40,144 nt of DNA from a virus. Every line of letters begins with the position of its first letter. Position 1 is the stretch's first letter. Of the stretch, positions 755 through 40,144 are shown piece after piece. Below the pieces are notes generated by a model. It searched no databases and was not told where the DNA came from. It saw only the letters and a program-made list of their open reading frames with translations. A program made the translations under genes and the position numbers. Where the stretch lies: IMG/VR virus record IMGVR_UViG_3300042465_001389, positions 1 through 40,144 of that record; one strand, 5' to 3'.

Positions 755-757
755 CGT

Positions 758-1378: not shown

Positions 1379-1601
1379 AGTTCACGCCCTCTTTCTTCAT
1401 GATGATTGAATAAACATCGCCAGCCATGTCACAAGCGAAACATCTAAACCCACCAATATCAATGTTTAAACGAGCAGATTTTACATGGTCATTGTGGAAG
1501 GCGCAACGCACTGATTGCCACCCGCCACGGTTAGTTGCAACTACAAATCCATAGTGTTCAAGTACTTTAACAATGTCATGCTTAGAGGTTTGCGAGGACA
1601 T
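1224..1601 (-). CDS. Primase zinc-binding (CHC2-type) domain protein
   Basis: About 125 residues from the ATG at 1601 (MSSQTSKHDIVKVLEHYGF); longer starts exist but would extend further into the upstream gene. Ligands match a CHC2 zinc ribbon: SVRCAFHNDH, then RCFACDMAGDVYSIIMKKEG. This fold recognises template DNA in DnaG-like primases. The last 50 residues (basic and Ser/Arg-rich) overlap the start of the TOPRIM gene by 155 nt. A fused product would need a +1 (or -2) shift. The start overlaps the end of the resolvase-like gene by 20 bases and no strong Shine-Dalgarno is visible, so translational coupling is likely. GTTTAAAC at 1464 encodes Leu-Asn in this gene. Confidence 0.85.
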   Translation of the reverse strand: MSSQTSKHDIVKVLEHYGFVVATNRGGWQSVRCAFHNDHVKSARLNIDIGGFRCFACDMAGDVYSIIMKKEGVNYGKAVQIAEGITGESNGELRRKPKRSATVSDESRYSRGNGAYIPPRLRGES

Positions 1602-5802: not shown

Positions 5803-5819
5803 GTTTAAACTATATTAAG

Positions 5820-6733: not shown

Positions 6734-6751
6734 GTTTCTATCCTTATATGT

Positions 6752-8722
6752 TTAAACGACAGTACGAGCGACAATCTGGAGAATTCCACCGTAGCCTGAG
6801 AAGTTACCGCTAGGTGGTGTAGTGCGGGTGAAAGACACCTGCTCAATCACTGCTTCAATAGGTTCTCCGTCAGCAGTGAAATCTTGGATGATGATAGTTT
6901 CGCCTTGGGCTTCCATAGCCTCTAGCGCTTGGAGTCTACCGAGTGCGTAGCCTTGGAATCCCATGATGTTCTTATTGCGGTCACGCTCCGAATCAAAACA
7001 AAAGACAGGGATTTGAATAACACGAGCGCGGGTAGGAGTAGGCAGAGCCTTAACAGAGTAACCATAAATAACAGCGCCAGTCGTGGCAGTTGTATCGTTA
7101 CGATTGAGGCGGAATTTAAACTGCGCTTCCACGCCAACATCTGTAAAAACCGATGAGAGGTCGTAGTCATAATCAGTTGTACTCCCTTGCGTTACGGTAC
7201 GGAAGGCTGTGTCTGCTCCGTTTTGAACACGAAAGATGTCAATGTCACCTTGCAGAGTTCCCTCAGTGCGTAGTTTTAAACGCTTCCATGCTTTGTTCTC
7301 AAGGGTTTCGTAACGGATAATACCTGTGGTGATTTCACCTGACTCAACAAGTTCAGTTGCATGCTCAATAAATAAACCATCACCGTTTACACAGAAAGCA
7401 ATTCTGCCATCGCCAAGGTTTGCAACGCCTTCTACTTTACCCGTTGCGCCTTCTGCATAAATATCTGTGGAGTATGCATAGGCACCATTTGTTAATGGCT
7501 GTGATAGGTCAACTCTATAGACACCAGAGTAGCCACCAACACCAGAGTCAACACCAGCAATAATAAATTTGCTGTATGCGCTCATCTTGAATATGCCTAG
7601 GTTGTTTTCAAATATAAGCGGTCCGTAAGAAAGGTCGCCAACTTCATTGGCTATTGCGATACGCAAACCTCTGCTAGTTCCTATGGCAACATAAGTTCCA
7701 AGGTAGCCAAGTAAGCCAGTTACTTCTTCTCCACTTGGTAGCGTTATCACGCTAGTCATGGTTGTTAACGCACCAGTGTTGTCTACCGTAATCTTGTATA
7801 CATTACCCTGCTCACCAGAAAATCCACCAACATAGATTGCAGCACCTGCTTCTGTTATAGCCCTAAAGGTGTAGCCAGTTGGCATGGTGCTGCTGCCATT
7901 AACTGGGGTAAGAGTGCTTAGGTTGATTGATGAACCAGAATTTCTATTAATTTCATAAACAAATGTATTTTTATTTACATCATGAAACCCAAGCATGAAA
8001 CGGTTTTTAACATAGGCAATAGTTGCTGTTTGTGCATTTGCCGTGTTAATTGTATAGTCTTGATGTAGTGATGGAGAAGCGGCATCAAATGAATATCGCC
8101 ACACTTTGGTTGGTGTAACCATCATAAGGTCATTACCACCCATACCAACGGCTATGATGTTTTCAGTAATGGCAGTATTGTCAATAATGGTTGTTTCTGA
8201 ATAATCACTAACTCTGATTCTTAATACACGGATTGTTTCCGTGGATGAATACTTAACTAATATCAGATACTCAACGCCACTAATGATGGTATTAAATACA
8301 CGGCTATCGCCAGTTACTGCCTCTTGTAGGAATGTTCTGCGAAGCAGAGAGATTCTGCCTGGAGTCCAAGGGTTAATGCCAACAGATGAACTGAAGCGGA
8401 AGCGTGCTTCCTCTAAGGTTCCAGTGATTGGCTCTTGGTATGTGCTGCCTGTTCCAAGGTGGAATGATGACTGGCTGCGAATCCAGTAGCCTGAACCTGA
8501 AAGTGACTGCTCACCTGGGTCGCGTAGTTGGTCCACGCGCTGAGTACGAAACTCTGCAGTCTGACGGCGATATGGAGTATTGTCTGTAATCGCTGCAATA
8601 AAAGGCATGCCACCGATAGCAAAGTCATACTTGTATGTGGTTGGGTCGTAGTATGTGGAGATGCGACCCGACAGGTCAATTATTACGCGTTCAGATATAT
8701 CGGGCGGTCTGCTGTCTACCAT
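6752..8722 (-). CDS. Large tail protein, beta-propeller-like
   Basis: 656 residues with AAAGGAGCAGC before the ATG. The N-terminal 100 residues are Gly/Ser/Thr-rich (FHLGTGSTYQEPITGTLEEA), the middle is a series of repeated beta-rich blocks (for example FIIAGVDSGVGGYSGVYRVD, GDGRIAFCVNGDGLFIEHA) suggesting a beta-propeller, and the last 100 residues (IQIPVFCFDSERDRNKNIMG, QDFTADGEPIEAVIEQV) look like a separate compact domain. Its place between the fibre cassettes and the lysis genes fits a tail tip or spike. The stop lies inside a GTTTAAAC at 6750. I cannot assign an enzymatic function. Confidence 0.75.
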   Translation of the reverse strand: MVDSRPPDISERVIIDLSGRISTYYDPTTYKYDFAIGGMPFIAAITDNTPYRRQTAEFRTQRVDQLRDPGEQSLSGSGYWIRSQSSFHLGTGSTYQEPITGTLEEARFRFSSSVGINPWTPGRISLLRRTFLQEAVTGDSRVFNTIISGVEYLILVKYSSTETIRVLRIRVSDYSETTIIDNTAITENIIAVGMGGNDLMMVTPTKVWRYSFDAASPSLHQDYTINTANAQTATIAYVKNRFMLGFHDVNKNTFVYEINRNSGSSINLSTLTPVNGSSTMPTGYTFRAITEAGAAIYVGGFSGEQGNVYKITVDNTGALTTMTSVITLPSGEEVTGLLGYLGTYVAIGTSRGLRIAIANEVGDLSYGPLIFENNLGIFKMSAYSKFIIAGVDSGVGGYSGVYRVDLSQPLTNGAYAYSTDIYAEGATGKVEGVANLGDGRIAFCVNGDGLFIEHATELVESGEITTGIIRYETLENKAWKRLKLRTEGTLQGDIDIFRVQNGADTAFRTVTQGSTTDYDYDLSSVFTDVGVEAQFKFRLNRNDTTATTGAVIYGYSVKALPTPTRARVIQIPVFCFDSERDRNKNIMGFQGYALGRLQALEAMEAQGETIIIQDFTADGEPIEAVIEQVSFTRTTPPSGNFSGYGGILQIVARTVV

Positions 8723-14009: not shown

Positions 14010-14903
14010 TTATCTCTGATAGTGCGAACGGATTGGATGTTGACGGCGTTGGTTATTCGCCACTTCGTTTAAACGCTGCTGATAAATGTTGTACAAGAAT
14101 CTGGCTGCGTTCTGCCCCGAACCTGTCGGGCGCACGCCATCAAGGATGTCTGCTGCTGCAGACTGAGGACCAAGGCGTGAAGGGTCCAAGAACGAAATCA
14201 TGCGGAAGGCTGCGCCATAGATGGCAACATCCTCCGAATAAGATGGAAAGCCTGTTACTGTTTCATAAACATCAGTATCATTAACAAGTGCTGTTGGGCG
14301 CTTGCTGTATGACACATGCACTGTTTGTCCAGGAACAATCTCTGAATAGATAGATAGGCTCTTTGTGGTAGCAAAGGCATCTGAATCTGCAACTCTATCT
14401 AGTTGCCATGCACGAGATGGAAACCACTCTTTGGATGGCCCTACTGTTGAGTAAGTTACAGATAAAACATTTTGTACTGCAGCAGGAATCTCATAGGAAT
14501 ACTGTGCTGCTACATAATCAAAGTCATAGGTACCTACCGCAAAGATGCTTGGGTACATAGCATTGATTGTGTCATTGATGGCGTTCTTAATCTCTTGCCG
14601 TGGGAACAGTGGTGCCATTGTTACTTTGGCATTGCTTGTGTGAGCAGCAGCAGTTGTGCCACGCTGCGCTCTACCCCATGGAGCAAGGCTTAGAGTATTG
14701 GCTACATTGTCTGTAGAGTTAACGAATACAATTTCATCGTCAATCTGTACATAACCACGCCCAATAACTGAAGCATCATAAACGCTCAAGGTTGTTGCTG
14801 TGCTAGTAGCGTTGCTAACTAGCCAAGTAGCAGGCTCTGTGTTCTCTGTATAGCCATGCAATACAGCCTCAACACGGTCTGCTAGTTGTCCGAAAGTACT
14901 CAT
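14010..14903 (-). CDS. Putative tail adaptor / tail tube-like protein
   Basis: 297 residues, start overlapping the previous stop as ATGA. The N-terminus MSTFGQLADRVEAVLHGYTE, beta-rich centre with GRGYVQIDDEIVFVNSTDNV and APWGRAQRGTTAAAHTSNAK, and later EIKNAINDTINAMYPSIF and SYEIPAAVQNVLSVTYST. The GRGYVQIDDEIVxV segment occurs in structural proteins of short-tailed phages at the head-tail region. Position between the small head genes and the long fibre suggests an adaptor or tubular protein. Not firmly assigned. GTTTAAAC at 14067 encodes Leu-Asn. Confidence 0.6.
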   Translation of the reverse strand: MSTFGQLADRVEAVLHGYTENTEPATWLVSNATSTATTLSVYDASVIGRGYVQIDDEIVFVNSTDNVANTLSLAPWGRAQRGTTAAAHTSNAKVTMAPLFPRQEIKNAINDTINAMYPSIFAVGTYDFDYVAAQYSYEIPAAVQNVLSVTYSTVGPSKEWFPSRAWQLDRVADSDAFATTKSLSIYSEIVPGQTVHVSYSKRPTALVNDTDVYETVTGFPSYSEDVAIYGAAFRMISFLDPSRLGPQSAAADILDGVRPTGSGQNAARFLYNIYQQRLNEVANNQRRQHPIRSHYQR

Positions 14904-15175
14904 AGGTCAATGCTCCTTAATGCAACCACGGCTGATAATCCAGAGGTGCCAGCAAGTTCATTGCAGATGGCGTTTAAACCTTTGTAGTCATTTGGCTGGC
15001 GTGTAGAACTAGCCTTGTAATTGAGGGCAGCAATCAGTCCTTTGCCAGTAGTTCCAGCCCACGCATTAGCAGCACCTTGTGGTGCATCGTAAACTGTATA
15101 AACAGGGTATGTACCGCCATTGGCTAGACGGTTAAGTTCACCCGTAAGTGTGCTTCCTGCTGCTCCTGTTGCCAT
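14900..15175 (-). CDS. Hypothetical virion-associated protein
   Basis: 91 residues: MATGAAGSTLTGELNRLANG, a middle with YTVYDAPQGAANAWAGTTGK and a C-terminus KGLNAICNELAGTSGLSAVV. Starts in TAATG overlap and ends in ATGA overlap with the adaptor candidate. No domain recognised, but the operon position points to a head-tail component. GTTTAAAC at 14972 encodes Leu-Asn. Confidence 0.68.
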   Translation of the reverse strand: MATGAAGSTLTGELNRLANGGTYPVYTVYDAPQGAANAWAGTTGKGLIAALNYKASSTRQPNDYKGLNAICNELAGTSGLSAVVALRSIDL

Positions 15176-16553: not shown

Positions 16554-16810
16554 GCTGGTGTTATGTACTCTCCATAGCCTTGTGCTGTTAGCGCATCGGC
16601 TGTCTGTTGTGTAATCAGAGTTGATGTACCACCTGGGTAGTACTCCTCAGCAGTAGTTGTGAGAATCTGACTTGGGTATCTGTATGAGGAATAAATACCG
16701 TTTAAACGCAAGACTGAGATACCACGCGCTATCTTGTAGCGAGCAAAGAGGATGTTATCTCCTGCAGGAGTTTCATCTACCGTAGGGGTAGTGAAGTAAT
16801 ACATTGACAT
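16550..16810 (-). CDS. Small head-associated protein
   Basis: About 86 residues from the ATG at 16810 or 84 from 16804; AGGAGG lies 4 or 10 bases upstream respectively. YYFTTPTVDETPAGDNILFA, RYKIARGISVLRLNGIYSSY, GGTSTLITQQTADALTAQGY. Immediately downstream of the capsid gene, so a head-completion or decoration role is possible. GTTTAAAC at 16700 encodes Leu-Asn. Confidence 0.68.
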   Translation of the reverse strand: MSMYYFTTPTVDETPAGDNILFARYKIARGISVLRLNGIYSSYRYPSQILTTTAEEYYPGGTSTLITQQTADALTAQGYGEYITPA

Positions 16811-18666: not shown

Positions 18667-20241
18667 TTATATTGTGGTTGTACTTCTTAAGGTTGAGCCT
18701 GTTACGCCACCACGAGCACTAAAGCGGGCTGCTTCACGCTGAGCGCGTTGCTGTGATGCAAGCAATGCTTCTGGACTGCCTTCAATAACAGCCTGCAACG
18801 CTTCTTGTTCATTGTATGTAACGCCTTCAAGTTGAGCAAGGCGTTGTTGTGTACGGCGTAATTGACCTGCACTGCCAAGTGCCTTGGCAAGTTCAGCCTC
18901 TGAAAGTTTTGCATAGGATTCTGTACCAGCAATGTTTTCTGCTTGTTGTGCTGTGATGCCACCGAGAGTAAATCCAGCAGCACGACCAATTCCTACAAAT
19001 TGTGCAGCCTTAGCCTGCTTCTGAATCAATGGTAATGCACGCTCTGCATCAAGAACAAAGGCTGTTAAATCGCCTTCTCCTACGCCATAAAAATCTATTA
19101 GTTGTTGTTTAACCGCAGGGTTTAAACTACGAGCCAAATCTTGACCTACTTGTAGACGGTCTTGGAATTCCTTTGGAGATACTTCTTTTCCAATCAAATC
19201 ACCAAAGTCATCTGGCGTGTCGTAGAAACCTTTAGGAATATCAAAGAAACGAGCAGTTTGAACCATAGCATTTTCGTTTTTCATATACTCTGATTCAGTA
19301 ATAGTACGACCTGCCTTACGCAACGCAGCCATACCAGGAAAACGCCTTTGATATTCTGGTTGGTCGTAAAGTTCAAGCATGACTTGTTCTTCTGAAACAT
19401 CAGCCATAATACGGCGGTCAATGAATCCAGCAAGTCCTTCAAGACCATAACCTGCCAACATTGTGGTTAGTTTGTCTTTAGCCTTTACCTTAAGAGCCAA
19501 CTTAGCAGCATCTGCTTCAGCCTTTTGTTGAGCAGCAAGTGCATCAAACTTAGCCTGTTGTGTAGCCAATGCTTTTGTAATAGCAGCATCTACATCTGCT
19601 TGAGTTAAACCTTTAGTACTACTTGCTCCGTCAGTACTGCCTGAACCATCAGTTGCTGCATTACTGGCATTAGGCTTGCTAGACACAAAAGAAATATAAT
19701 TACCGCTTGCATCTGTTGTAAATCTAGCACCAAATGTTTGGTAACTACCAGGACCAGTAGCAACTTGTAATTGCTGGCTTCCATCAGAATTTGTAACAAT
19801 TCTATAGCCAAGATAACCAGCAGAGGAACCAAATAGTTTTTCTAGTCCAGCAGGAAATGACCCTGCGGTAAAACCAGCAGGAAGATTACCAGTAGCAATG
19901 TTATTACCATCTGTGCTTGGTGGGTTTGATGTTGTCTTTAAAGTATTAGCACCAACTGCACTATTGAAGGTAGCCTGAGTAGCGCCACCTTGAGAGCGTG
20001 TTTCAGCACTTGAAGCCTGCGGAGAATCTATTGGAGTTTGATATAACTTCCAACGACCACTTGAAGCCCCACCAATCCAACCGTAATACTTAACCATGTT
20101 AGGGTCATCTTGTTCAGCCTCTGGGCGAACTGTTGGGTTGCGCATTGGGTCTGCTTCAGCACGAGCCTTGGCTGCATCTGCTAAACGCTTTTCACGCTCT
20201 GCTTTTAATTGGGCTAAGCGTTCTTCTCTGTCAACTGCCAT
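18667..20241 (-). CDS. Large virion-type protein, low-complexity centre
   Basis: 524 residues, linked to the preceding gene by a TAATG overlap. N-terminal charged coiled coil (REERLAQLKAEREKRLADAA), a long Ser/Thr/Gly/Asn-rich segment to about residue 215, an Ala/Lys helix (ALATQQAKFDALAAQQKAEA) and a C-terminal helical domain (AMVQTARFFDIPKGFYDTPD, EVSPKEFQDRLQVGQDLA). No enzymatic motif. It belongs to a set of four large proteins between portal and scaffold, the position of internal or ejection proteins in short-tailed phages; this is inference. GTTTAAAC at 19120 encodes Leu-Asn. Confidence 0.72.
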   Translation of the reverse strand: MAVDREERLAQLKAEREKRLADAAKARAEADPMRNPTVRPEAEQDDPNMVKYYGWIGGASSGRWKLYQTPIDSPQASSAETRSQGGATQATFNSAVGANTLKTTSNPPSTDGNNIATGNLPAGFTAGSFPAGLEKLFGSSAGYLGYRIVTNSDGSQQLQVATGPGSYQTFGARFTTDASGNYISFVSSKPNASNAATDGSGSTDGASSTKGLTQADVDAAITKALATQQAKFDALAAQQKAEADAAKLALKVKAKDKLTTMLAGYGLEGLAGFIDRRIMADVSEEQVMLELYDQPEYQRRFPGMAALRKAGRTITESEYMKNENAMVQTARFFDIPKGFYDTPDDFGDLIGKEVSPKEFQDRLQVGQDLARSLNPAVKQQLIDFYGVGEGDLTAFVLDAERALPLIQKQAKAAQFVGIGRAAGFTLGGITAQQAENIAGTESYAKLSEAELAKALGSAGQLRRTQQRLAQLEGVTYNEQEALQAVIEGSPEALLASQQRAQREAARFSARGGVTGSTLRSTTTI

Positions 20242-22465: not shown

Positions 22466-25400
22466 CTATCCAAGTGTTACTGGGTCGTTTTGTAAGAATC
22501 GGTTATAGAAATCGCCAAACTCTGGAGAACCTTTACGAAGTTGTGCGATTGTTGAATTCCATAGCGCATCTAAGTCAGCATTATCTTCTGCTGTTAGCGT
22601 TGAAGCCATACCGTATGCCTTGCGGTTAGCAAGTTCGCGGGCTATTTGAGTACGCATATTGAGATATACAGCGATGGATTGAACTACTGGTCTGCGACCA
22701 TTTTCTGCCATCCACTTAGGGTCTGACAACATGGTACGCATAGATTCCATGCGGTAAATCCACTTGCCTCTATCTACGCTGTAGTAGTCAGCAGCCCAAT
22801 CTTGATTACGGCGGGTTAAGTCTGCAACCATCATTTGCTTGAGGGTTTGAAGTTCCTCAGCACCACTTTCGTTGTAAGACTCATAACCTTGAGCCTCTAG
22901 TTGGTAATCAAGTAAATCCATGTTCTTACGGAACTCAATCCAACCAACCTTTATATTGGCATCTTTCTTGAGTTCTGCAGGGTTACGGCGGGCGCGATAG
23001 TTCTCTGTTGAGCCAGGAACTGGAGCATTGCCATACTGCCATGCATATACAGCCTCTGAGAAGTCATACTTTCCATCTGGGTCATTGACTAAGAAGCCAA
23101 TCATCTCAGGTGTTGTCTGACCAATCTTACCAATCAAGCCTTTGTACTTCTGGATATTTTGGAAAGCAGCCTGTGATGCTTGCGCACCTGTTGGGTTATA
23201 TGAGGCGCTAACCAAAGCAGGACCCATTTCTGGGTACATCTGCAAGAACAACACCTCTGCATCTTGTCCATATACCTGTTGTAATCTACGGAATTGCTGT
23301 GTGTAGAAACTCAATGGTGAGTCATACTGTGCAGCAAATGGCATTACAAGGTTTGACAAGATACGAACTTTGTAGAAGTTGCTAGTTAAATCTGCAACCT
23401 CTTTAAGTTCAGGCATTGTGTCGCGCTCGCCAAGGTTGTAACGAATCAACTCATAGCGGTAAACTGTGTTAAATGTACGGCTCCATAGTTCATCCTGTCC
23501 AGCAAGAGAAGCCAACTTCTGTGCTGCTGGTGGGAACAACTGGCGTAGTGAACCTTCTTGTGGTCCAAATGGAAGCACTGGCAAAACGCTAGAGGTAACA
23601 ATATCCTCAAGGTCTGGTTTTAACTTAACAATCTCATTGACTGGTAGCGTTACAAGTGGACCAAAACCTGCTATAACTTCACCTTGCATGATGACATCCA
23701 TGCTTCGGATTGGAATAGAAACCTGTGTTCCTGTGGAACGGATAGCCTCTGCCATGCCCTTGCCCCATACTGGAATCTTGCTAATGCCCTCAATAACACC
23801 TTCAGACATTGGCACAACAATCTTGTTCTCATAGGAGAACTCAGTTGTTGGGTTTCCATCTTGGTCAACCACATTTGGCTGATTGCGTAGCGAGGACACA
23901 ATTTGTCCAGCACGAGCAATAACTGCAGGGTTTTCCTTGGCAAGACCTGACCAACGGCGGATGGTGTTCTCCCATGCGTTAAAGAATGGCATGATGAAGC
24001 GCATCTTCTCGCCTGCGTAGGACTTGCGGATAATTGTAAAGAGTGTCTTGTTTACTTCTTTGCGTGTTGCCTCAATAGCATCACGGCGAAGCCCGTTAAT
24101 TTCATCAACAGTTAGTTCTAACTTGTTATCGTTTAAACGCATACGCTTTGTAGCCAATGCGATGTCCATACGCTGTGTCATATCTGAGCGGTAGATTTGA
24201 CGAGCCAATGGGTGGCGAGCAAGCGTTGTTTCAGGCAGTGAACCTAAGAAGTAGAACGCTCTGTCAACAACCTTTGCTAAGCCTTCTTGCCAGTTACGAG
24301 CCTGTGGGCTAGTAGGCACAATGCGACCAATAATGTCTGGCATCTCTGTAGCCTCAGCAAAATGCTCACGCAACCAAGACTCAGTAATTTCTCCATTACG
24401 GAAGGCTTCCTGCACTTGTCTATCTGGTAGGTAGCGATTGTAGGCGCTATACAAGTCACCAACAAAATCTTCTGCATCAATGGATACATCTAGGCGTTCT
24501 GAAGCAACCTTGATTCCTGGCACATCAATGTTAAATCTGCGGGCATACTCAACATTATCTGGGTTGCGTAGCCATGCCACGATTTCTTCGGGGCGTGCAT
24601 TGTTAAGCATTTGCTCAATGATTGGGTCAATACGACCATCTGGGCTACGGAAGAAACTGTTAAGTGAATTTGCGTAACCTGCATAGTAGTCAGGCATTGC
24701 AGGTGTAAGAGTTTCCTCAACAAAGTTGCCATGCTCAGCAGCAAATAGTTGTGCAGGATGGTCAACAAATCGGCGGTAAGTTTCTGCGCTGTTTGTGCGG
24801 TCAAGTAGGATGCTTCCTAATTCACCAGCAAAAGCATCATCTACTTCTACCTTGGTGCCATCATACAAAGTAAGAATTCTGCGACCTGTGCCTTGAATAG
24901 CCTTTGGTGCGCCTAAGCGTTCTTCTTCAACAATTCTTCCGTTTAAACGCTGTAGTAGTGCTTTTAATTCTTTTTGGCGTGTAGCCTGTCCGTCAGCAAT
25001 TTCACGGACAATAGTTGCTAAGCCTTCGGTTGGGTATTTGCCTCTGCCGATGGATTCGGAGATTTCATTAACGCGCTGTCTAAAATTCTCTGGGCGAGTA
25101 ACTCTGCGAACGCTCTGCGTTCTTGTGAGTTCATCTGGTTTAACGGCTTTTGTGCCTTTACCCAATGCAAATGCTGCGCTTGCTCCGACATCTCCTGTGC
25201 CTTTCGTGTCAATGTACTCAAGGTTTCCTATATCAAAGACACCCTGCTGGTTTCTGTCCTTGCCAATCTTAATGGCTTTCCCACGATTTTCAATTACATT
25301 TACGGGGTCGGACTTAATATGAGGAACGCCATCAATATCGTCAATCCAAGTACCAAAATACTGTGCATCGCCAAACTTATCAAAATTAGCCTCAATATGG

Positions 25401-33160: not shown

Positions 33161-33690
33161 TCGGAGCCACATTTATGGGGGGCGAGGACTAGCAAAGTTA
33201 TGTATATAGAGATATACACAGGCACGCTCCGCGATTTTAAAAACCCTGGGGTGCGATTTTTCATCGCACTGCTTCGTGTTGCACACTGTTTAAACGCTCA
33301 CTGCTAGGCATGCATGCGCTCACTCACTGCAATGCAGGGCTGGCATGCGGGGAGGCGCTTACTCTCACATCTAATCGCGCCCCCCCTGCATACATCGCAA
33401 GCAAGCAATGCAAGATAGTTGAACTTTCAACAATTAAACCCGCAACGGCTAAGCAGTAGCCCGTAAGTTACTCATCGGTAACATGCGAAAAAGCAAATAA
33501 AACACGAGAAAATCTCACATGCGAAATATCATAGGTGTGAGAAAAGCAGTATAAAACAATGGTTTTCTCATGGTTACTCAGCAGTAACTTATGCAACCTC
33601 GCTCAATCTCGCTCAAGCCGTGAAGCAATCCGAGGCAATGGGCAATCGTTTAAACCCCTCAAAAGTGAGTATTTTACGCTGGTTTTCGGG
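33161..33690. other. Non-coding divergent control region, origin candidate
   Basis: More than 500 bases without a gene. It holds GTGCGAT-TTTTC-ATCGCAC (33251-33269), GTTGAA-CT-TTCAAC (33418-33431), GTTAC/GTAAC (33467-33482), TCTCACA/TGTGAGA (33513-33542) and GTTACT-CAGC-AGTAAC (33573-33588), a 10-base direct repeat ACATGCGAAA (33481 and 33517), an AT-rich part at 33480-33570, and GTTTAAAC at 33288 and 33648. Both main transcription blocks diverge from here. These are the features expected of an origin or a master control region, not proof of one. Confidence 0.5.
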
Positions 33691-33695
33691 CATGC

Positions 33696-33725
33696 TTGAC
33701 TTTGTTTAAACCTCACGATTAAACT
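33696..33725 (+). promoter_or_regulatory. Putative promoter of the rightward operon with GTTTAAAC in the spacer
   Basis: TTGACT at 33696-33701 and TAAACT at 33720-33725 are separated by 18 bases, a sigma-70-type layout. The palindrome GTTTAAAC at 33704-33711 lies inside the spacer, where a bound protein would block polymerase. The 12 bases ATGCTTGACTTT recur at about 36499 before the next sub-operon. Confidence 0.5.
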
Positions 33726-33726
33726 C

Positions 33727-33741
33727 TGCCCCGAAGGGGCA
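33727..33741 (+). promoter_or_regulatory. Leader hairpin before the SprT-like gene
   Basis: TGCCCC-GAA-GGGGCA, a 6-base stem with a triloop in the 5' untranslated region, 14 bases before the ACGAAAGGAA ribosome binding motif at 33755-33764. It may stabilise or regulate the transcript. Confidence 0.45.
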
Positions 33742-33773
33742 ACCAGCCCCACCGACGAAAGGAATGGCTCACG

Positions 33774-34325
33774 ATGAATCGTGAACAATGGCTCAAAACA
33801 CTGGCAGACACTGCAGTGCCTCAAATCTCCTCAAGCCTTGAACTGGCTACGGAGGAGTTAAGCCTCAAACTCTCTTGCGGTTTCCCTGCTCAAAAGGGCA
33901 AGCGCAACAAGGTTTCAGCCTCTCTTGTACCTCCAACAGCATCGGAGGAATTTAACGCTGAAATTTTCGTGACTCCCGAACTATCGGAGAAGCGCAAAGT
34001 GGCTCAAGCCGTTTTACCTCTCCTCGTTGCCGTTGTGACTGGCGATTACCAGCAACGCCGTATCTACCGCGATGCTGTACGCCGTTTAAACCTCAACGGC
34101 TCCGAATTGCCAGCATGGGCAAAGTCAATCGCCGATGCGATGCCTGCCTATCCTCACGCCTCAATCACGCTTGAGGAGCAGGCTAAGCAATCCACCCGTT
34201 TAATCAAGGTTATCTGCCCGAATCTTGAGCATGATGCCTATATCGCCCGCATGAGCCGTAAAACTCTTGAATTTGGCAGTCCAATCTGCCCATGCGGTCA
34301 GACCATGAGAGCGGTGAATTACTAA
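33774..34325 (+). CDS. SprT-like protein lacking the HExxH protease motif
   Basis: 183 residues. The layout follows actinophage SprT-like proteins: MNREQWLKTLADTAVPQISS, then KLSCGFPAQKGKRNKVSASL, then EIFVTPELSEKRKVAQAVL, then PAYPHASITLEEQAKQSTRL and a C-terminal metal ribbon ending PICPCGQTM. Where homologues have HELVHA, this protein has LPLLVAVVTGDY, so no zinc protease site remains, and the first knuckle of the ribbon is CPNLEH instead of C-x-x-C. It is therefore probably a binding protein derived from a protease. ACGAAAGGAA precedes the ATG. First gene of the rightward operon. Confidence 0.7.
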   Translation: MNREQWLKTLADTAVPQISSSLELATEELSLKLSCGFPAQKGKRNKVSASLVPPTASEEFNAEIFVTPELSEKRKVAQAVLPLLVAVVTGDYQQRRIYRDAVRRLNLNGSELPAWAKSIADAMPAYPHASITLEEQAKQSTRLIKVICPNLEHDAYIARMSRKTLEFGSPICPCGQTMRAVNY

Positions 34326-34327
34326 TC

Positions 34328-35053
34328 ATGGAAACTTTCGGAATTGAACTAGAGGTTTCCAACCTCTCAATCGCAGGCGCTCAACACGCAATCAACCGCG
34401 CTGGTTTAAACTGGCAGGTTAAATTTGACGGTACCCGTCATGTATCCGCCGAAGCGGTCAGCCCAATCCTTGACCGTGACCGTTTAAACGAGGCTAAGAA
34501 GGCAACCCGCGCCCTGCTTGCCAGTGGCGCAACCGTCAACAAGCAAACGGGTCTGCATGTACACCTCGGAGCCGATGAGTACGGCGTAGAAGGTATTGCC
34601 CGCCTCGTGTGGAATTGGAATCTCGCTCACGCCACAATCGGAGCGCTTGTTGCCAAATCCCGTTTAAACAATCACTTCTGCCAAGCCGTGACACTCTCAC
34701 GCCTTGAGTCATGGGTTGAGCATGTACGCAATGGCTCAATCCGTAACCTTGAGGGCGGGCGCTACTGGTCGCTCAATCTCAACGCATACAGCGCACACCG
34801 CACGGTTGAATTCCGCCTACATCACGGCACGCTTAACGGCTCCAAGGTCAAGGCATGGGCGGAATTCGTAAGCGCCATGGCTAACTATTCCACGGCTGGC
34901 AATCTGCTCAGCACGAATGACGGTTGGTACAACCCTATTGACCGTTTAAACAAGGTCGGCGAATTGTTGGACACGCTGGCACACGCTGGCAATCTCTCAG
35001 GCGATACCGCCGAATTCCTCAAGGGTAGAGCGGAGGAATTGAGCGCCCGCTAA
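34328..35053 (+). CDS. Amidoligase family enzyme (glutamine-synthetase-like COOH-NH2 ligase)
   Basis: 241 residues from the ATG at 34328. Conserved marks of the phage amidoligase family are present: METFGIELEVSNLS at the start, TGLHVHLGADEYG in the middle and HRTVEFRLHHGTLNGSKVKA near the end, providing acidic and His/Arg residues of the ATP-metal site. The family links a carboxyl group to an amine with ATP. Substrate is unknown. A glutamine amidotransferase two small genes away could supply ammonia. Four GTTTAAAC copies occur within this one gene (34404, 34482, 34662, 34944), all read as Leu-Asn. Confidence 0.85.
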   Translation: METFGIELEVSNLSIAGAQHAINRAGLNWQVKFDGTRHVSAEAVSPILDRDRLNEAKKATRALLASGATVNKQTGLHVHLGADEYGVEGIARLVWNWNLAHATIGALVAKSRLNNHFCQAVTLSRLESWVEHVRNGSIRNLEGGRYWSLNLNAYSAHRTVEFRLHHGTLNGSKVKAWAEFVSAMANYSTAGNLLSTNDGWYNPIDRLNKVGELLDTLAHAGNLSGDTAEFLKGRAEELSAR

Positions 35054-35131
35054 GCGGGTAGCCCGCCCCTAGTGGGCATGCGTGAGTGCAATCCTCACGG
35101 CGGGCGCTAGTGATACCAAATCGGTGTCACT
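35042..35131 (+). promoter_or_regulatory. Multi-branched RNA structure between amidoligase and the next genes
   Basis: A perfect 9-base stem AGCGCCCGC (35042-35050) with GCGGGCGCT (35100-35108) closes over two or three hairpins: GCGGG/CCCGC (35054-35066), or alternatively GCCC/GGGC (35065-35077), and CGTGAG/CTCACG (35081-35099). A second hairpin follows, AGTGATACC (35109-35117) with GGTGTCACT (35123-35131), nine pairs with one G-U. GTTTAAAC begins at 35132 and a ribosome binding site follows. No U-run, so not a simple terminator. Confidence 0.6.
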
Positions 35132-35157
35132 GTTTAAACTGACGAAAGGAAATAAGC

Positions 35158-35277
35158 ATGTGGAAACGAAACGAACATGATATGACTTGCCTTGTATGCG
35201 GAGCCGTTTACAGTTACGCATCAGAGTGGGACATGGCGAATGTAGATTGGCACGAGCATGACAAGGAAGGTGTTTAA
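35158..35277 (+). CDS. Tiny zinc-finger-like protein
   Basis: 39 residues, with ACGAAAGGAA 6 bases before the ATG: MWKRNEHDMTCLVCGAVYSY, then a tail containing DWHEHDKEGV. C-x-x-C followed by H-x-H resembles a C2H2-type finger. The stop TAA lies in the GTTTAAAC at 35272 and the next ATG follows two bases later. Likely a small DNA- or protein-binding factor. Confidence 0.65.
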   Translation: MWKRNEHDMTCLVCGAVYSYASEWDMANVDWHEHDKEGV

Positions 35278-35279
35278 AC

Positions 35280-35393
35280 ATGTACCCAAACGCATTACCT
35301 TGGTGGCTTCAATGGATAGACGGAAGCGTGATTTTGTTGGTTGCGCTTGTGATTTATTTCCTGTACAAAGCACGCAACAGTGGAGGTAACTAA
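35280..35393 (+). CDS. Tiny single-pass membrane protein
   Basis: 37 residues: an aromatic start (MYPNALPWWLQWIDG), one hydrophobic helix (SVILLVALVIYFLY) and a short basic tail (KARNSGGN). Translation starts at the shared AGGTGTTTAAACATG element. Function unknown. Confidence 0.62.
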   Translation: MYPNALPWWLQWIDGSVILLVALVIYFLYKARNSGGN

Positions 35394-35395
35394 TC

Positions 35396-35545
35396 ATGTA
35401 CAGCAAAGATAACACCTGTTTAAACTGCGGGGAAAGTTTATGGTACCCGCATCAACCAACATGTGTATGGTCAGACGATGACCGTTTAAACACCGTCACT
35501 TGTGGCGACTGCTTGCGCTCCGATTGCGCTGGCTGTGAAGTGTGA
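35396..35545 (+). CDS. Tiny cysteine-rich zinc-ribbon protein
   Basis: 49 residues with GGAGG upstream: TCLNCGESLWYPHQ, PTCVWSDDDRLNTV, TCGDCLRSDCAGCEV. Seven Cys in three clusters imply one or two zinc sites. Two GTTTAAAC copies (35418, 35484) lie within 74 bases, both read as Leu-Asn. A putative promoter (TTGCGC, 16 bases, TATACT at 35524-35551) overlaps its end. Confidence 0.65.
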   Translation: MYSKDNTCLNCGESLWYPHQPTCVWSDDDRLNTVTCGDCLRSDCAGCEV

Positions 35546-35551
35546 TATACT
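35524..35551 (+). promoter_or_regulatory. Putative promoter of the amidotransferase gene
   Basis: TTGCGC at 35524-35529 and TATACT at 35546-35551 with a 16-base spacer, 37 bases before the ATG of the amidotransferase gene, which has GGAG as ribosome binding site. The -10 is good, the -35 moderate. Confidence 0.4.
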
Positions 35552-35588
35552 TAACCCGTAAACCTACAACAGACTGGAGATATAACTT

Positions 35589-36377
35589 ATGTGTGGAATC
35601 GCAGGCTATTGCCTAGACCCCAAGCACGCTAAGCGTGTTAGTACCGCAGACCTAGCAGGACAGATGCTCCTTGACATTGAGCATCGTGGCTATCATGCAA
35701 CGGGAGTTGCATACATCAACCGTTTAAACGGTAACCGTGTTATCCGCAAGGCTCCTACTTGCGCCACTGATTTCATCAAACGCAGTGGCAAACACCTATG
35801 TGACGGAGCGCAAACCGCAATCCTTCACACCCGTTGGGCTACGCAAGGCGACCCAAAGAACAACGACAACAACCACCCAATCCCACGCGGGCGTATCGTG
35901 TTGACTCACAACGGACACATCAGCAACGACACCGAACTGTTTAAACAACTAAACATTCAGCGCCGTGGTCAAGTTGACAGCGAGGCAGTGACCGCACTGC
36001 TTGCCTTCAGTAAAGCCAAGCCGTGGCAAGTACTGCCACAGATGCGAGGTACAGCCGCGCTTGCATGGATTGAGCAAGACAACGCCAACACCCTGCACCT
36101 AGCGCGTGTCAATTCCTCACCGTTATGGATTGGACAAACCAACACGGGTTCACTGGTCTACGGTTCAACCGAGGAAACCATTGAGAACGCATGCGTAATG
36201 CTTGACTCCGAACTAGATTGGAAATACTCAGCAGATGAGGGTGAGTACTTCAAGGTGCGTGACGGTGCAATCATTGAGTACGAAACCTTCAAGCCCACAC
36301 GCTACGCAGGTAACTGGAATTACCGCGATAGTCAGTGGGATAAATACTGGGACAAGCAAGATGAGTTAGCCTTCTGA
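35589..36377 (+). CDS. Class II glutamine amidotransferase (Ntn hydrolase)
   Basis: 262 residues. Cys2 directly after the initiator Met (MCGIAGYCL) is the N-terminal nucleophile. Other family marks follow: MLLDIEHRGYHATGVAYINR, ILHTRWATQGDPKNN, NHPIPRGRIVLTHNGHISND and GTAALAWIEQDNANTLHLAR. The enzyme releases ammonia from glutamine for transfer to an acceptor. No synthetase domain is fused; the nearby amidoligase is a likely partner. Other possibility: a stand-alone gamma-glutamyl hydrolase. Followed by a strong intrinsic terminator. GTTTAAAC at 35722 and 35939. Confidence 0.9.
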   Translation: MCGIAGYCLDPKHAKRVSTADLAGQMLLDIEHRGYHATGVAYINRLNGNRVIRKAPTCATDFIKRSGKHLCDGAQTAILHTRWATQGDPKNNDNNHPIPRGRIVLTHNGHISNDTELFKQLNIQRRGQVDSEAVTALLAFSKAKPWQVLPQMRGTAALAWIEQDNANTLHLARVNSSPLWIGQTNTGSLVYGSTEETIENACVMLDSELDWKYSADEGEYFKVRDGAIIEYETFKPTRYAGNWNYRDSQWDKYWDKQDELAF

Positions 36378-36393
36378 TTTACCAGAAGAATAC

Positions 36394-36429
36394 AAACCCC
36401 CTGTTTAAACGCAGGGGGTTTTTCTTTTG
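36394..36429 (+). terminator. Intrinsic terminator with GTTTAAAC in the loop
   Basis: AAACCCCCTG (36394-36403) pairs with CAGGGGGTTT (36412-36421); the 8-base loop plus closing base holds GTTTAAAC (36403-36410), and TTTCTTTT follows. It ends the amidotransferase transcript. Confidence 0.88.
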
Positions 36430-36567
36430 CCAGACGATGTGCGCACAATGTATACACAATTGTTTAAACAAAAAAATAATTTAAAAATCTTTTGATAAAT
36501 GCTTGACTTTATATTTACCAAGCGGGAGTATATGACAGTGGCAACAACGCCACACCTACGAAAGGAA
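36430..36567 (+). promoter_or_regulatory. Promoter region of the small-gene chain
   Basis: After an AT-rich stretch with GTTTAAAC at 36462, ATGCTTGACTTTATATT (from about 36499) supplies a TTGACT -35 like that at 33696; the -10 is uncertain (GAGTAT at 17 or TATATG at 20 bases). ACGAAAGGAA at 36558-36567 is the ribosome binding motif, also found before 33774 and 35158. Confidence 0.45.
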
Positions 36568-36571
36568 AGCA

Positions 36572-36742
36572 ATGCTAGTAACAGATATAATCGCAGTTAG
36601 TATTGCGTTAGTTAGTGCGGTTGGATTACTTATCCATGGCGCAAGAGTTAATGCAAGACTAGAAAAAGAAAACAATTACCTACGCAAACAGGTACGAGAG
36701 ATGCGCAAGCAAATCGGTAACATGGTGGAGCGCCCATTCTAA
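36572..36742 (+). CDS. Small membrane protein with coiled coil
   Basis: 56 residues: MLVTDIIAVSIALVSAVGLL forms one membrane helix, followed by HGARVNARLEKENNYLRKQV, a basic coiled coil. The stop overlaps the next start as TAATG. A membrane-anchored small regulator or superinfection-exclusion-type protein is possible; nothing specific can be named. Confidence 0.65.
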   Translation: MLVTDIIAVSIALVSAVGLLIHGARVNARLEKENNYLRKQVREMRKQIGNMVERPF

Positions 36743-36948
36743 TGAGCGACACAAGGAAAGAACTAAAGAGTAGGCACGCGCTGGCACAGAGCAGGGCAAA
36801 GACCCGACTAGTGCAAGCACACAAAGCGGAATACGAAACTATCTACCGCCAAGAGTGCGAGAAGTTGGGACTAACAAACCGACTACCAAAGGCGGAACGA
36901 ATCGCCAAACTAAAAGCACAACTACAAAGACTGGAAGCAGGTGTTTAA
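36742..36948 (+). CDS. Small basic helical protein
   Basis: 68 residues: SDTRKELKSRHALAQSRAKT, RLVQAHKAEYETIYRQECEK, RIAKLKAQLQRLEAGV. Mostly helix, Lys/Arg-rich, possible coiled coil. The stop lies in the GTTTAAAC at 36943. No family recognised. Confidence 0.65.
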   Translation: MSDTRKELKSRHALAQSRAKTRLVQAHKAEYETIYRQECEKLGLTNRLPKAERIAKLKAQLQRLEAGV

Positions 36949-36950
36949 AC

Positions 36951-37178
36951 ATGGCTAAGCAATTTTCCTACGCAATATATTTTGACGGAACTCAGTGGCA
37001 CCTAGATGTAGACACGGAGGAGCAAGCCTTTCCAAATGGAACTGTCTATGATACCGAAACCAAATCGTGGGACTACGCCTATCAGGGTGACGGTAAATTT
37101 ATTGAGGGTGCGCAAGAAGCAGACAAACAACTGCAAGACATGCTCAACAAAATGAATCAAGAAAGGTTAGGTGTTTAA
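36951..37178 (+). CDS. Small hypothetical protein
   Basis: 75 residues starting at the AGGTGTTTAAACATG element. KQFSYAIYFDGTQWHLDVDT, NGTVYDTETKSWDYAYQGDG and a helical end (ADKQLQDMLNKMNQERLGV). The stop lies in the GTTTAAAC at 37173. An alpha/beta small domain of unknown role. Confidence 0.68.
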   Translation: MAKQFSYAIYFDGTQWHLDVDTEEQAFPNGTVYDTETKSWDYAYQGDGKFIEGAQEADKQLQDMLNKMNQERLGV

Positions 37179-37180
37179 AC

Positions 37181-37432
37181 ATGAGTAAACAAACTTATGA
37201 GGGCTGGAAAAACTACGAAACTTGGAACTGTGCGCTATGGATTAACAACGATTACCCGTTGTACATCAGCGCAAGATTGTTCATGAAAGACTATCGTGGT
37301 GCCAAGCCTTACCGTGATTGGGTGCGCGTTGCTGGATTGGAAAATCAACAAACCAAAGACGGTTGCAAATGGATTAGCGATAAGTTATCCTACTCAGAAC
37401 TTAACAACATGATGGAAGGATTAAACAACTAA
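37181..37432 (+). CDS. DUF7249-like protein
   Basis: 83 residues from the third AGGTGTTTAAACATG element. EGWKNYETWNCALWINNDYP, LYISARLFMKDYRGAKPYRD. The NYETWNxALWI core is one I know from small proteins in many phages and plasmids, annotated DUF7249 as far as I recall; function unknown. Confidence 0.75.
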   Translation: MSKQTYEGWKNYETWNCALWINNDYPLYISARLFMKDYRGAKPYRDWVRVAGLENQQTKDGCKWISDKLSYSELNNMMEGLNN

Positions 37433-37617
37433 TGAAAGACCCGAAAGAAGTTGCACGCATACGAGTATCGGCATCAAAGTATGCGATTAAATTCCTGCGA
37501 CATAAATACCGCAGGGAATATCAAGAACTTTATGATGCGTACCTACGCAACAGAGGTTTAAACACACGCCGTCACCCTGCTGAACTGATTGACGAACGCG
37601 AGATGATTAAATCATGA
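37432..37617 (+). CDS. Small basic protein
   Basis: 61 residues in TAATG overlap with the previous gene. KDPKEVARIRVSASKYAIKF, LRHKYRREYQELYDAYLRNR, then RRHPAELIDEREMIKS. Helical and basic. GTTTAAAC at 37556 encodes Leu-Asn. No family. Confidence 0.62.
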   Translation: MKDPKEVARIRVSASKYAIKFLRHKYRREYQELYDAYLRNRGLNTRRHPAELIDEREMIKS

Positions 37618-37760
37618 GCAAGTGCGGAGCATGTGGCGGAACTATCTCAAATACCGTGGTACCTCACGGACAAATCTGTGATGATGACATCATGGCACCG
37701 AGCATCAACGACCTAATGAAATCACTAGACGAAAGCGAAATGGAGGAGGACAATGACTGA
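37614..37760 (+). CDS. Tiny Cys-containing acidic protein
   Basis: 48 residues, overlapping both neighbours (ATGA at the start, 8 bases at the end). MSKCGACGGTISNTVVPHGQ, ICDDDIMAPSINDLMKSLDE, acidic end. C-x-x-C, a distant His and a Cys could bind one zinc. Confidence 0.6.
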   Translation: MSKCGACGGTISNTVVPHGQICDDDIMAPSINDLMKSLDESEMEEDND

Positions 37761-38118
37761 ATACAAAGCAGTCAAGGGTGTAGTTATCCACCCCGATGGT
37801 ACACATGACGAGAGGGTGTTTAAACAACTCTTGGATTATCAGCAAGCAGTCCACGGAATCATAGATGCTGTTAGATTGTATGACTACAACGGGCAAGAGA
37901 TAGCGTGCGCTTATGTAGATGATGAAGGGCTACTCAAAAGCCTGCCACTAAACCCAATGGCGAGTGCGTTATCTTTCCTCTTTGGCAATACGCCACACTT
38001 GGTTGGTGACATCGTACTTGTTGGGCGTTCAGATGATGAGGGCTACGACACAGACTTGCCCGACTTTATCCTCACACTGGTGCGAAACATCAGTGCCAAA
38101 CAGGAGATTAACGCATAA
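37753..38118 (+). CDS. DUF3846-like protein
   Basis: 121 residues. The pattern DYQQAVHGIIDAVRL, then DYNGQEIACAYVDDEGLLKS, then LPLNPMASALSFLFG and VGDIVLVGRSDDEGY fits DUF3846 as I know it from phages and actinobacterial mobile elements; the protein is small and function unknown. Stop overlaps the transglycosylase start as TAATG. GTTTAAAC at 37818 encodes Phe-Lys. Confidence 0.78.
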   Translation: MTEYKAVKGVVIHPDGTHDERVFKQLLDYQQAVHGIIDAVRLYDYNGQEIACAYVDDEGLLKSLPLNPMASALSFLFGNTPHLVGDIVLVGRSDDEGYDTDLPDFILTLVRNISAKQEINA

Positions 38119-38558
38119 TGTTTAAACGCATAGTCACTATCTTCCTCATCGTCACCGCAAGCGTGGCGATAGATGACAGGTTCTTTGACAAATCGCATGT
38201 ACCAATTTCGCCACTGACGGACAAGGCGCACATCAGTGGCACGGTGGTAGCCTTCTATGAGAATGAATACCAACGCTACGCAGTAGACATGCTCACACAA
38301 ATGGGCAAACTTGAACAGTGGTCATGCTTGTACACACTATGGACACGCGAATCAAACTGGAATCCACGGTCATTGAATCGTAAGTCAGGTGCCTATGGTA
38401 TAGCGCAGTTCATGCCAGCAACATGGAAGCAAGTAGGGTTTAAACGCACCGATGACGGCTTCATACAGGTGGAAGCAGGGCTTGCATATATCCAACGAAA
38501 GTATGGTGGCAATATCTGCAAGGCGCTCGGTTCAAATCTATCAAGAGGGTGGTACTAA
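38118..38558 (+). CDS. Lytic transglycosylase-like (SLT domain) protein
   Basis: 146 residues. The N-terminus MFKRIVTIFLIVTASVAI is a signal or membrane anchor. The SLT core follows: LYTLWTRESNWNPRSLNRKS with the catalytic Glu, then GAYGIAQFMPATWKQVGF and EAGLAYIQRKYGG. The enzyme cleaves peptidoglycan glycan strands. It is encoded far from the lysis cassette, in the early operon, so it may act at entry or on the host wall early, or replace a virion muralytic enzyme. Two GTTTAAAC copies (38120 at the start codon, 38438). Confidence 0.85.
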   Translation: MFKRIVTIFLIVTASVAIDDRFFDKSHVPISPLTDKAHISGTVVAFYENEYQRYAVDMLTQMGKLEQWSCLYTLWTRESNWNPRSLNRKSGAYGIAQFMPATWKQVGFKRTDDGFIQVEAGLAYIQRKYGGNICKALGSNLSRGWY

Positions 38559-39065: not shown

Positions 39066-39080
39066 AATAAACTAAGAACA

Positions 39081-39147: not shown

Positions 39148-39152
39148 ACAAA

Positions 39153-39689
39153 TTAAAGTTTGTGAACATTATGCATCAACATGAATACCTCATTAGCAAG
39201 TTCATCAAGTGAGCCATCGTTGTATACAACTCGTTTAAACATGTGATTATCTAATGCGCGTTCGCTTATATGGTCATTGACTGCGCCATGGTTGTGTCTG
39301 TTTATACGCCACACTTCACCACCGCGTTCTTCAATCATGCGTGCTTCGTTAGGGAAGCGAACATCAGGGATAATAATGCGCTCATCAGTGTCAATCTTAT
39401 TAAACAAACGCCACACCCAAACATCTTCATGAATTAACTTACGACCAACTTCGGTACCCATAACTTGTAGCAGTCGGCGCACTTCATCTTTAGCCTTTGC
39501 TACTTCCCAACCATACATAGTAACTATCTCGTTTAAACGATGACCGTCATGCAAGATGGGGTTGAGTGCAAGCAATGCTTCTCTTATGCCATCAGCGAAC
39601 GCCATGCGTTTAAACTGATAGTTCAATACAAGTAACTCAGCAACTGTGTCCTTGCCACTACGAGCATATCCACTTAATCCAATAATCAC
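39153..39689 (-). CDS. Deoxynucleoside monophosphate kinase
   Basis: A 178-residue P-loop kinase with the nucleotide-binding loop GYARSGKDT at residues 7-15, right after the first beta strand MIIGLS. This arrangement is that of phage dNMP kinases, related to dephospho-CoA kinase, which phosphorylate dNMPs to supply precursors for phage DNA synthesis. Later segments (VWRLFNKIDTDERIIIPDV, RFPNEARMIEERGG) match the substrate-binding region of that family. The start is GTG, overlapping the stop of the sigma-like gene (GTGA), so translation is probably coupled. It is the last gene of the leftward non-structural operon and faces WhiB across a shared hairpin terminator. Copies of GTTTAAAC lie at 39233, 39531 and 39608 inside the gene. 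Confidence 0.88.
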   Translation of the reverse strand: MIIGLSGYARSGKDTVAELLVLNYQFKRMAFADGIREALLALNPILHDGHRLNEIVTMYGWEVAKAKDEVRRLLQVMGTEVGRKLIHEDVWVWRLFNKIDTDERIIIPDVRFPNEARMIEERGGEVWRINRHNHGAVNDHISERALDNHMFKRVVYNDGSLDELANEVFMLMHNVHKL

Positions 39690-40144
39690 TCTTGCTCCTC
39701 CTGATTTCTTATCTCTGCTCTTGCTTCGGCATTACTACGAACGCGCCTACGACCACGCCACACTGGTGCTTCGCCACCTAATCTGTCTTGTAGTTTAGTA
39801 AGCGCCCGTTTAACACGCTTACGCATGGCTTCCTCAGTGGTGCCATACGATTCAGCCAACGCGCCAAATTCCATACCACCATTGGCATAGCGCATACGCA
39901 GCAAGTCCTGGTCTGTCTTGTTTAAACGGTCAAGTCCTGCTGCTACATCTGACAACAGCGCAATGCGATTGCCACCCTCTGATGGTTTAGAACTACGAGA
40001 AATATATTCACTGCTCATATCGGGAGTATCAGTCCACCCCTCATGAGTCCACACATCACGCAACAATTCATGAAGCACCTCATGCGTGTAATAAAAACTA
40101 TCAGCAATAGGTGAACGAGATAGATGCGAGCGCTCTTTGGCAAC
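39686..40144 (-). CDS. Sigma-70-like factor, C-terminal part (continues at position 354 on the circle)
   Basis: Bases 40013-40144 duplicate 1-132, so this open frame is the C-terminal half of the gene that starts at 354. The full product is 226 residues. Residues about 144-196 form a sigma region 4-type helix-turn-helix: LDRLNKTDQDLLRMRY, then EFGALAESYGTTEEAMRKRV, then a basic tail rich in Arg. Region 4 binds -35 elements in sigma factors. The gene ends in GTGA, shared with the start of the dNMP kinase gene. The only difference between the two copies of the overlap (A at 127, G at 40139) is synonymous, GCT/GCC for Ala. A GTTTAAAC copy at 39920 encodes Leu-Asn just before the HTH. Confidence 0.75.
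   Translation of the reverse strand, partial: VAKERSHLSRSPIADSFYYTHEVLHELLRDVWTHEGWTDTPDMSSEYISRSSKPSEGGNRIALLSDVAAGLDRLNKTDQDLLRMRYANGGMEFGALAESYGTTEEAMRKRVKRALTKLQDRLGGEAPVWRGRRRVRSNAEARAEIRNQEEQE
40013..40144. repeat. Terminal repeat equal to bases 1-132 (circular closure)
   Basis: 132 bases match 1-132 with one mismatch (A127/G40139), synonymous in the sigma-like gene. This closes the map at about 40,012 bp. It is either an assembly overlap of a circularly permuted genome or a short direct terminal repeat. Confidence 0.9.

Follow-up and report, generated by a model that had tools for sequence, protein, structure and literature searches.

The stretch of DNA analysed here, referred to as the window, is the whole 40,144 nucleotides (positions 1 to 40,144) of the IMG/VR virus record IMGVR_UViG_3300042465_001389. 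It is a nearly complete podovirus-like actinophage contig of ~40 kb, from a freshwater phage, and encodes a terminase, portal, capsid (PF13252), primase, DnaB-like helicase, RecB-like exonuclease, WhiB protein, sigma-like protein and glycosyltransferase. It also carries 41 exact copies of an 8-bp perfect palindrome, GTTTAAAC. We report the distribution, conservation and covariation of this word, compared across hundreds of related and unrelated phages, which is probably the binding site of a phage-encoded zinc-ribbon protein, derived from the SprT-like family, that controls the early genes. The candidate regulator, a SprT-like protein of 183 amino acids without the HExxH motif, is encoded by the gene that opens the early plus-strand operon (33774..34325, + strand).

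Distribution of the palindrome

An order-3 Markov model predicts about two copies of GTTTAAAC in the window against the 41 seen (z = 28), and no other 8-mer is as strongly over-represented. Only 20 one-mismatch neighbours occur in the 40 kb and the word is therefore sharp, with flanks that show a weak preference for Y on the 5' side and R on the 3' side. When the window is tested region by region, the plus-strand cassette (32932-39152) holds 22 copies (3.5/kb; expected 0.14-0.18), the region 39153-40144 holds four (4.0/kb) and the region 1-6751 holds nine (1.3/kb), against six in the structural block (6752-32931; 0.23/kb). The 13,964 bp of non-structural sequence thus contain 35 of the 41 copies (binomial P 3e-11).

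An earlier note on this DNA had counted 41 copies, 22 of them within 33288-38445, and had placed 35 in ~13.5 kb of non-structural genes and flanks. The exact count bears out these numbers and very nearly the size, but in circular order, in which 39.9 kb runs on into position 1, the two non-structural blocks form one continuous region, and its density per kb is clearly unequal to that of the structural genes. The six copies that the note gave to the virion genes are also found, although these genes are not at chance level, since about 0.5 copies would be expected there (P ~1e-5). Its contention that base composition does not produce the pattern agrees with the Markov expectation and with a control word: TTTAAA outside the GTTTAAAC sites occurs 4, 0, 2 and 8 times in 32932-39152, 39153-40144, 1-6751 and the structural block, respectively, and lacks the regional pattern of GTTTAAAC. 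Within genes the two readable frames are used alike, seven sites reading LN and seven FK. The array is therefore caused neither by a repeated peptide or codon nor by base composition.

In the cassette, sites lie at 33288..33295, 5' of the early promoter (33648..33655), within the spacer of that promoter (33704..33711) and within the candidate regulator gene (34084..34091). Four lie in an amidoligase gene (34404..34411, 34482..34489, 34662..34669 and 34944..34951) and two in a glutamine amidotransferase gene (35722..35729 and 35939..35946, the latter at gene offset 350). Between these genes are an intergenic site (35132..35139), one at a stop/start junction (35272..35279) and two that are intragenic (35418..35425 and 35484..35491). 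Downstream, one site sits in a terminator-like hairpin (36403..36410; hairpin 36394-36421) and is followed by an intergenic site (36462..36469), two at stop/start junctions (36943..36950 and 37173..37180), two intragenic sites (37556..37563 and 37818..37825), one overlapping the start of a transglycosylase-like gene (38120..38127) and a last intragenic site (38438..38445). Beyond the cassette, three sites lie in a deoxynucleoside monophosphate kinase gene (39233..39240, 39531..39538 and 39608..39615) and one in the sigma-like gene (39920..39927). Those of the region that follows in circular order are at 168..175, 756..763, 1136..1143 (primase gene), 1464..1471, 1861..1868, 2162..2169 (glycosyltransferase gene), 2654..2661, 5803..5810 and 6750..6757, the end of the replication block. 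The structural block contributes 14067..14074, 14972..14979, 16700..16707 and 19120..19127, together with two sites in the gene of a protein of 2029 amino acids (24131..24138 and 24941..24948).

In relatives of the window, sites flank the terminator on both sides, and intergenic runs of three to four GTTTAAAC copies spaced by 43-46 or 51-55 bp stand beside a terminator (e.g. G035, 3509-3663; G013, 2008-2175). Helical phasing of the array spacings (43-46, 51-55 and 75-79 bp) gave no clean period.

Selection on the word and its concerted change

The close relatives comprise 21 further genomes whose terminases are 84-99% identical, with similar numbers of sites and three types of word. Type T1 is GTTTAAAC itself, found in the window and 13 of the 21; T2, found in G021 and G022, is the near-palindrome GTTTAGAC/GTCTAAAC, in both orientations; T3, found in six genomes, is GWMTTAAGACA. 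Most near-complete T1 relatives have 29-47 sites, and one partial contig has 20.

The copies of GTTTAAAC are under strong selection. In alignments of T1 DNA at 70-75% identity, 560 of 831 sites are intact (67%) compared with 10-13% of control 8-mers. The test was redone on codon alignments to avoid alignment anchoring, and where the peptide is identical the word is kept at 108 of 114 positions (95%) versus 37% for control 8-mers; retention thus goes beyond the unchanged peptide and selection acts on the DNA rather than the protein.

Between types, the word changes in concert. At homologous coding positions the T2 word is found at 179 of 433 T1 sites (41%), and GTTTAAAC is retained at none. In the amidoligase, for example, RLNE in T1 becomes RLDE in T2; the T2 phage G021 has GTTTAGAC at the codons homologous to 34482..34489 and at the same gene offset as 35939..35946, and its site at the start of the transglycosylase-like gene also keeps its offset. 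One phage, L133, carries ten copies of GTTTAAAC and ten of GTTTAGAC/GTCTAAAC, and has apparently been caught between the two types. Since the same letter has changed at dozens of sites, a trans-acting reader is required.

The T3 phage G016 and the T1 phage G038 share a backbone that is ~97% identical and differ by an exchanged early cassette, in which most of the sites lie. Over 89 loci, cassette type predicts the word without exception: all 62 with an amidoligase and amidotransferase have T1 or T2 and all 27 with the SprT cassette have T3. The early cassette is exchangeable, and the word changes with it.

The types also differ in placement. The T3 word frequently adjoins or overlaps the ribosome-binding site and is mostly aligned with transcription, and the orientation of the T2 word flips at a homologous gene boundary. 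Some T3 relatives (e.g. L172-L175 and L186-L189) have TTAAGACAGGAG followed by ATG about once per small gene.

Other products were considered as the reader or determinant of the word and rejected. The sigma-like protein (39686-40078) is 98% identical between the T1 and T3 phages of the G016/G038 pair. The module of the 2029-residue protein showed an early correlation with the word that was broken by the recombinants G003, G005 and G022. The amidoligase and glutamine amidotransferase are perfect markers of the cassette, yet both occur without the word in Salgado and Ottawa, two phages of Arthrobacter.

The candidate regulator and its promoter

A profile of SprT-like proteins with a QxTR segment (A1) has a single match in the window, the 33774-34325 product (E 1.2e-28), which also matches PHROG phrog_6361, a family of unknown function (E 1.6e-9); a Pfam scan of the product gave no match. 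By profile it belongs to the phage SprT-like family (phrog_6361/PF10263), although it lacks HExxH. Members of this family are annotated as protease or unknown, and our literature search found no link between them and a DNA site. A search for GTTTAAAC or GTTTACAC, a sibling word described below, together with phage returned nothing relevant.

Alignment shows that HExxH is replaced in the window protein and in full-length T1 and T2 relatives and is intact in T3 (HEVAH). A short form in seven T1 relatives, about half, consists of little beyond the C-terminal ribbon, KQ[ST]TRLxKVxC...YIARxSR...G.PxCPxC; that of G013 has 55 amino acids. The corresponding part of the window protein, a QSTR segment and zinc ribbon (AKQSTRLIKVIC...PICPCG; 34182..34322, + strand), is the only part retained in all T1 relatives. 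The window protein thus appears to be a SprT-derived protein that has discarded the protease and kept the ribbon, and the loss of HExxH together with the ribbon-only relatives suggests that the ribbon rather than the protease is the conserved working part. T3 cassettes open with a SprT-like protein that is intact and has a ribbon beginning GRNTN, not QxTR. In an AlphaFold2 model of an intact homologue, L314, a flexible linker joins the SprT-like core to a small beta-beta-alpha domain (mean predicted local distance difference test score 81.5). No helix-turn-helix (HTH) or repressor family was found among the cassette proteins scanned, L5 Rep itself not being among the queries.

Upstream of the gene, a -35-like TTGACT (33696..33701, + strand) and a -10-like TAAACT (33720..33725, + strand) enclose a copy of the palindrome in the layout TTGACT-TT-GTTTAAAC-N8-TAAACT (33696-33725). 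This is the first-listed promoter-like hit of the region; the promoter scan overall gave no more hits than shuffled sequence, and the call rests on conservation. TTGA is conserved in T1 and T2 relatives, and wherever these have the gene the word stands at this TTGA in the promoter. For a protein that would occupy the spacer of its own promoter, repression is the simplest reading.

Association of ribbon and word in other phages

To go from protein to word, annotated phages were chosen by homology to an uncultured SprT-like protein, blind to their DNA words. Eight of the first ten keep a QxTR ribbon. Among these GTTTACAC is the top or a near-top 8-mer in Yang (20 copies), Zeta1847 (22), VroomVroom (9), Honk (21) and UNTPL (31), with 0.2-1.4 expected, and GTTTAAAC occurs 7 times in Arya (Enterobacter), 9 in R5C (Dinoroseobacter) and 8 in Alexa (Acinetobacter), with 0.3-1.0 expected. 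Coltrane and Kieran, whose ribbon reads SRSGKS, have neither word. The rule that a QxTR ribbon predicts GTTTnnAC was drawn from these ten, an exploratory three preceding it, and was then applied to 12 more. Where QxTR is kept, GTTTACAC was found in Cen1621 (28 copies), Maureen (17) and 4A (13), and GTTTAAAC in Mano (4) and HeidiAbel_Bas97 (6); where it is lost (Franklin22, Gack, FP1, Epa43, Katzastrophic, BAjuniper and Eden) there are 0-1 copies. Overall the word is present in 13/13 phages with QxTR and 0/9 without, the rule holding in 22/22 (P = 2e-6 if independent, though many of the phages are related). The positives span hosts in the Actinobacteria and Proteobacteria.

The earlier note had also set aside a host-wide motif effect, and phages of one host do differ by ribbon type: on Microbacterium foliorum, Honk and Cen1621 are positive and Coltrane, Kieran and Gack negative, so that the word tracks the ribbon and not the host. 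On Streptomyces griseus ATCC 10137, UNTPL is positive and Immanuel3 is without the motif.

Eleven of the 13 cultured positives, of which Zeta1847 and Cen1621 were scored by inspection, have a site at a distance of 18-81 bp upstream from the SprT gene. Zeta1847 has GTTTACAC in the 17-bp spacer of several promoters, and Yang has it after the -10. Other strong repeats are also present in Yang (L325), Zeta1847 (L326) and VroomVroom (L327): GGGGCAACCTTCT; CATGACGAACACC, at gene starts; and CTGGCGCTCTCT.

To go from word to protein, 46 contigs unrelated to the window were picked solely by three close copies of GTTTAAAC. The SprT-like family is encoded in 17 of them and in none of 48 random contigs; among array contigs of at least 15 kb with at least 1 site/kb it is present in 15/18. 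It is the only family common to these diverse positives.

Other features of the phage

The amidoligase (34292..35053, + strand; PF12224, E 1e-22) is inherited with the early cassette of the GTTTAAAC/GTTTAGAC type (62/62 loci), as is the glutamine amidotransferase (35589..36377, + strand; phrog_14519). The pair (34292-36377) is also present in Salgado and Ottawa. Between the terminase and the early operon, 33083-33300 is conserved across T1, T2 and T3 in translations of both strands and is therefore probably non-coding; it may hold a packaging end or a late promoter. The 2029-residue protein and its neighbours (21229-28995; 9-18 kb in G016 and G038) occur in two exchangeable forms, with a fam39 or a fam48 partner, and recombine independently of motif type. 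The island of 8 kb described between the Planktophila phages E7 and F5 (PMC10202952) may be this module.

By terminase the nearest cultured relatives are Streptomyces phages of the Beephvirinae (~50% identity), of which Manuel, FlowerPower and Immanuel3 are without a comparable word. Relatives with terminal redundancy (G013 and G018) indicate a genome of ~39.5-40 kb. A terminase scan of bacterial genomes found zero relatives and so gives no direct host assignment; the cultured Planktophila phages E7 and F5 (PMC10202952), which are similar in gene content and size, offer a lead for the host.

Discussion

The regulatory reading of the array is well supported: the word is selected as DNA, it switches in concert, it stands in a promoter at 33704 and its siblings are embedded in promoters of cultured phages. 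The proposal of the earlier note that the palindromes serve regulation of the early half is upheld by the same evidence. That the reader is the 33774-34325 product is strongly supported by association, in sequence comparisons that run both from protein to word and from word to protein. We propose that this protein would recognise GTTTnnAC as duplex DNA through its QxTR segment and ribbon. At promoters, including its own, it would block initiation and so provide negative feedback; at its many sites within early and replication genes, binding would impede elongation, as the L5 repressor does at stoperators; and early transcription would be shut down as the protein accumulates. Direct binding, repression as the sign of regulation and roadblock action at intragenic sites are steps that we infer, and activation may take the place of repression.

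Several observations weigh against this assignment. Foldseek found no significant match and sequence searches of the PDB likewise gave none, and no residue was found that accounts for the choice between GTTTAAAC, GTTTAGAC and GTTTACAC. Many ribbons lack part of the first Cys knuckle, which leaves zinc binding uncertain. Of 14 uncultured, unrelated array phages, only one has a site in the 100 bp upstream of its SprT gene, which is chance level, and autoregulation is therefore not universal and depends on lineage. Moreover, the lineages of the cultured phages are not independent of one another, a single ribbon type accounting for 7 of the 9 negatives, and three dense-array contigs of at least 15 kb are without a family member, though they may be incomplete. 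The SprT-family protein could also act with a partner yet to be found.

A rival but unlikely explanation is that the word has a different reader, host-encoded or an undetected phage HTH protein, and that the SprT-like protein is an accessory, such as a protease that removes a repressor in the manner of ImmA/IrrE or CapP. In favour of such a role, the SprT-like family belongs to the zincins, most cultured positives keep HExxH, and a CapP structure came up in the fold search, though below significance. However, arrays remain intact and selected beside ribbon-only T1 proteins and the HExxH-less window copy, the word tracks the ribbon sequence within M. foliorum, and no other family is common to the positives. 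A role in replication, which the earlier note had put beside regulation, or in partition or genome organisation, with the ribbon protein as a DNA organiser or initiator, is improbable: the high density around replication genes and the closely spaced intergenic arrays of relatives (three to four sites, 43-55 bp apart) speak for it, but both the window clade and cultured phages have sites inside promoters, others are scattered through coding regions and not grouped at one origin, and the idea has no support of its own.

It is very improbable that GTTTAAAC is a target of restriction or methylation, retained because it gives protection or signals modification, even though its exact palindromic form of 8 bp and its scarcity of degenerate neighbours speak for this. 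The window proteins that were scanned, which represent part of the open reading frames, include no recognised methyltransferase; when the early cassette is exchanged the word takes non-palindromic forms; the sites are concentrated in early genes; and over-representation is the opposite of restriction avoidance. Least probable of those considered is an element acting at the RNA level, as a translation start signal or processing site. Cluster K mycobacteriophages carry start-associated sequences, and the T3 word, which shares the direction of transcription, likewise often adjoins or enters the ribosome-binding site; the word of the window, however, is not tied to start codons. T1 sites are mostly intragenic, T2 sites occur in both orientations with a flip at a homologous gene boundary, and the promoter site of T1 and T2 lies upstream of the transcription start.

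A DNA site that a SprT-derived ribbon would read invites comparison with the repressors of the L5 type, whose monomers use an HTH and a Stoperator domain to bind asymmetric 13-14-mers oriented with transcription (PMC9283540, PMC6550527). Genomes of cluster A (L5, Bxb1) carry tens of near-identical sites, some in promoters and many not, with sibling words that track the regulator (PMC6550527). The window shares with them the dispersed sites (41 versus 20-30 per genome), the placement of some in promoters and the covariation of word and regulator. It differs in having an 8-bp palindrome in place of an asymmetric 13-14-mer, in orientation (T1 is palindromic, T2 runs both ways and only T3 is oriented) and in a candidate reader that is a SprT-derived zinc ribbon without a recognised HTH. 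The system works like the L5 operators and stoperators and is no member of that group; the stoperator-like idea of the earlier note therefore stands as a functional analogy, with the difference in site length and symmetry that the note itself had pointed out and a further one in the candidate reader.

The temperate siphoviruses of cluster AZ/EH have serine integrases and no identifiable repressor (PMC8758107), and in having an integrase they differ from the window phage, in which none is present among the annotated genes. Cluster AZ/EH phages (Powerpuff, Yang, Zeta1847 and Honk) encode a QxTR SprT-like protein and carry ~17-28 copies of GTTTACAC, several in promoters; the protein is therefore a candidate for the missing repressor there (PMC8758107), and one that is testable in Arthrobacter. 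A broader reading, offered tentatively and with the balance tipping slightly to doubt, is that SprT-derived zinc ribbons that read GTTTnnAC-type sites without an HTH are a widespread new class of phage repressor, common to lytic and temperate phages whose hosts are Actinobacteria or Proteobacteria, and include the immunity repressor of AZ/EH. The window lineage would then have discarded the protease and kept ribbon and site array as a stoperator-like early shut-off switch, exchanged as a cassette.

A gene family whose annotation goes no further than SprT-like protease or unknown is thereby connected with a DNA word and a putative regulatory role, and with a rule, from QxTR ribbon to GTTTnnAC, that held in all 22 cultured phages compared. 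HeidiAbel_Bas97, a phage of E. coli, offers a tractable host for the system. Furthermore, T1, T2 and T3, together with the T1/T2 mixture, form a natural series for the joint change of specificity in a regulator and dozens of its sites.

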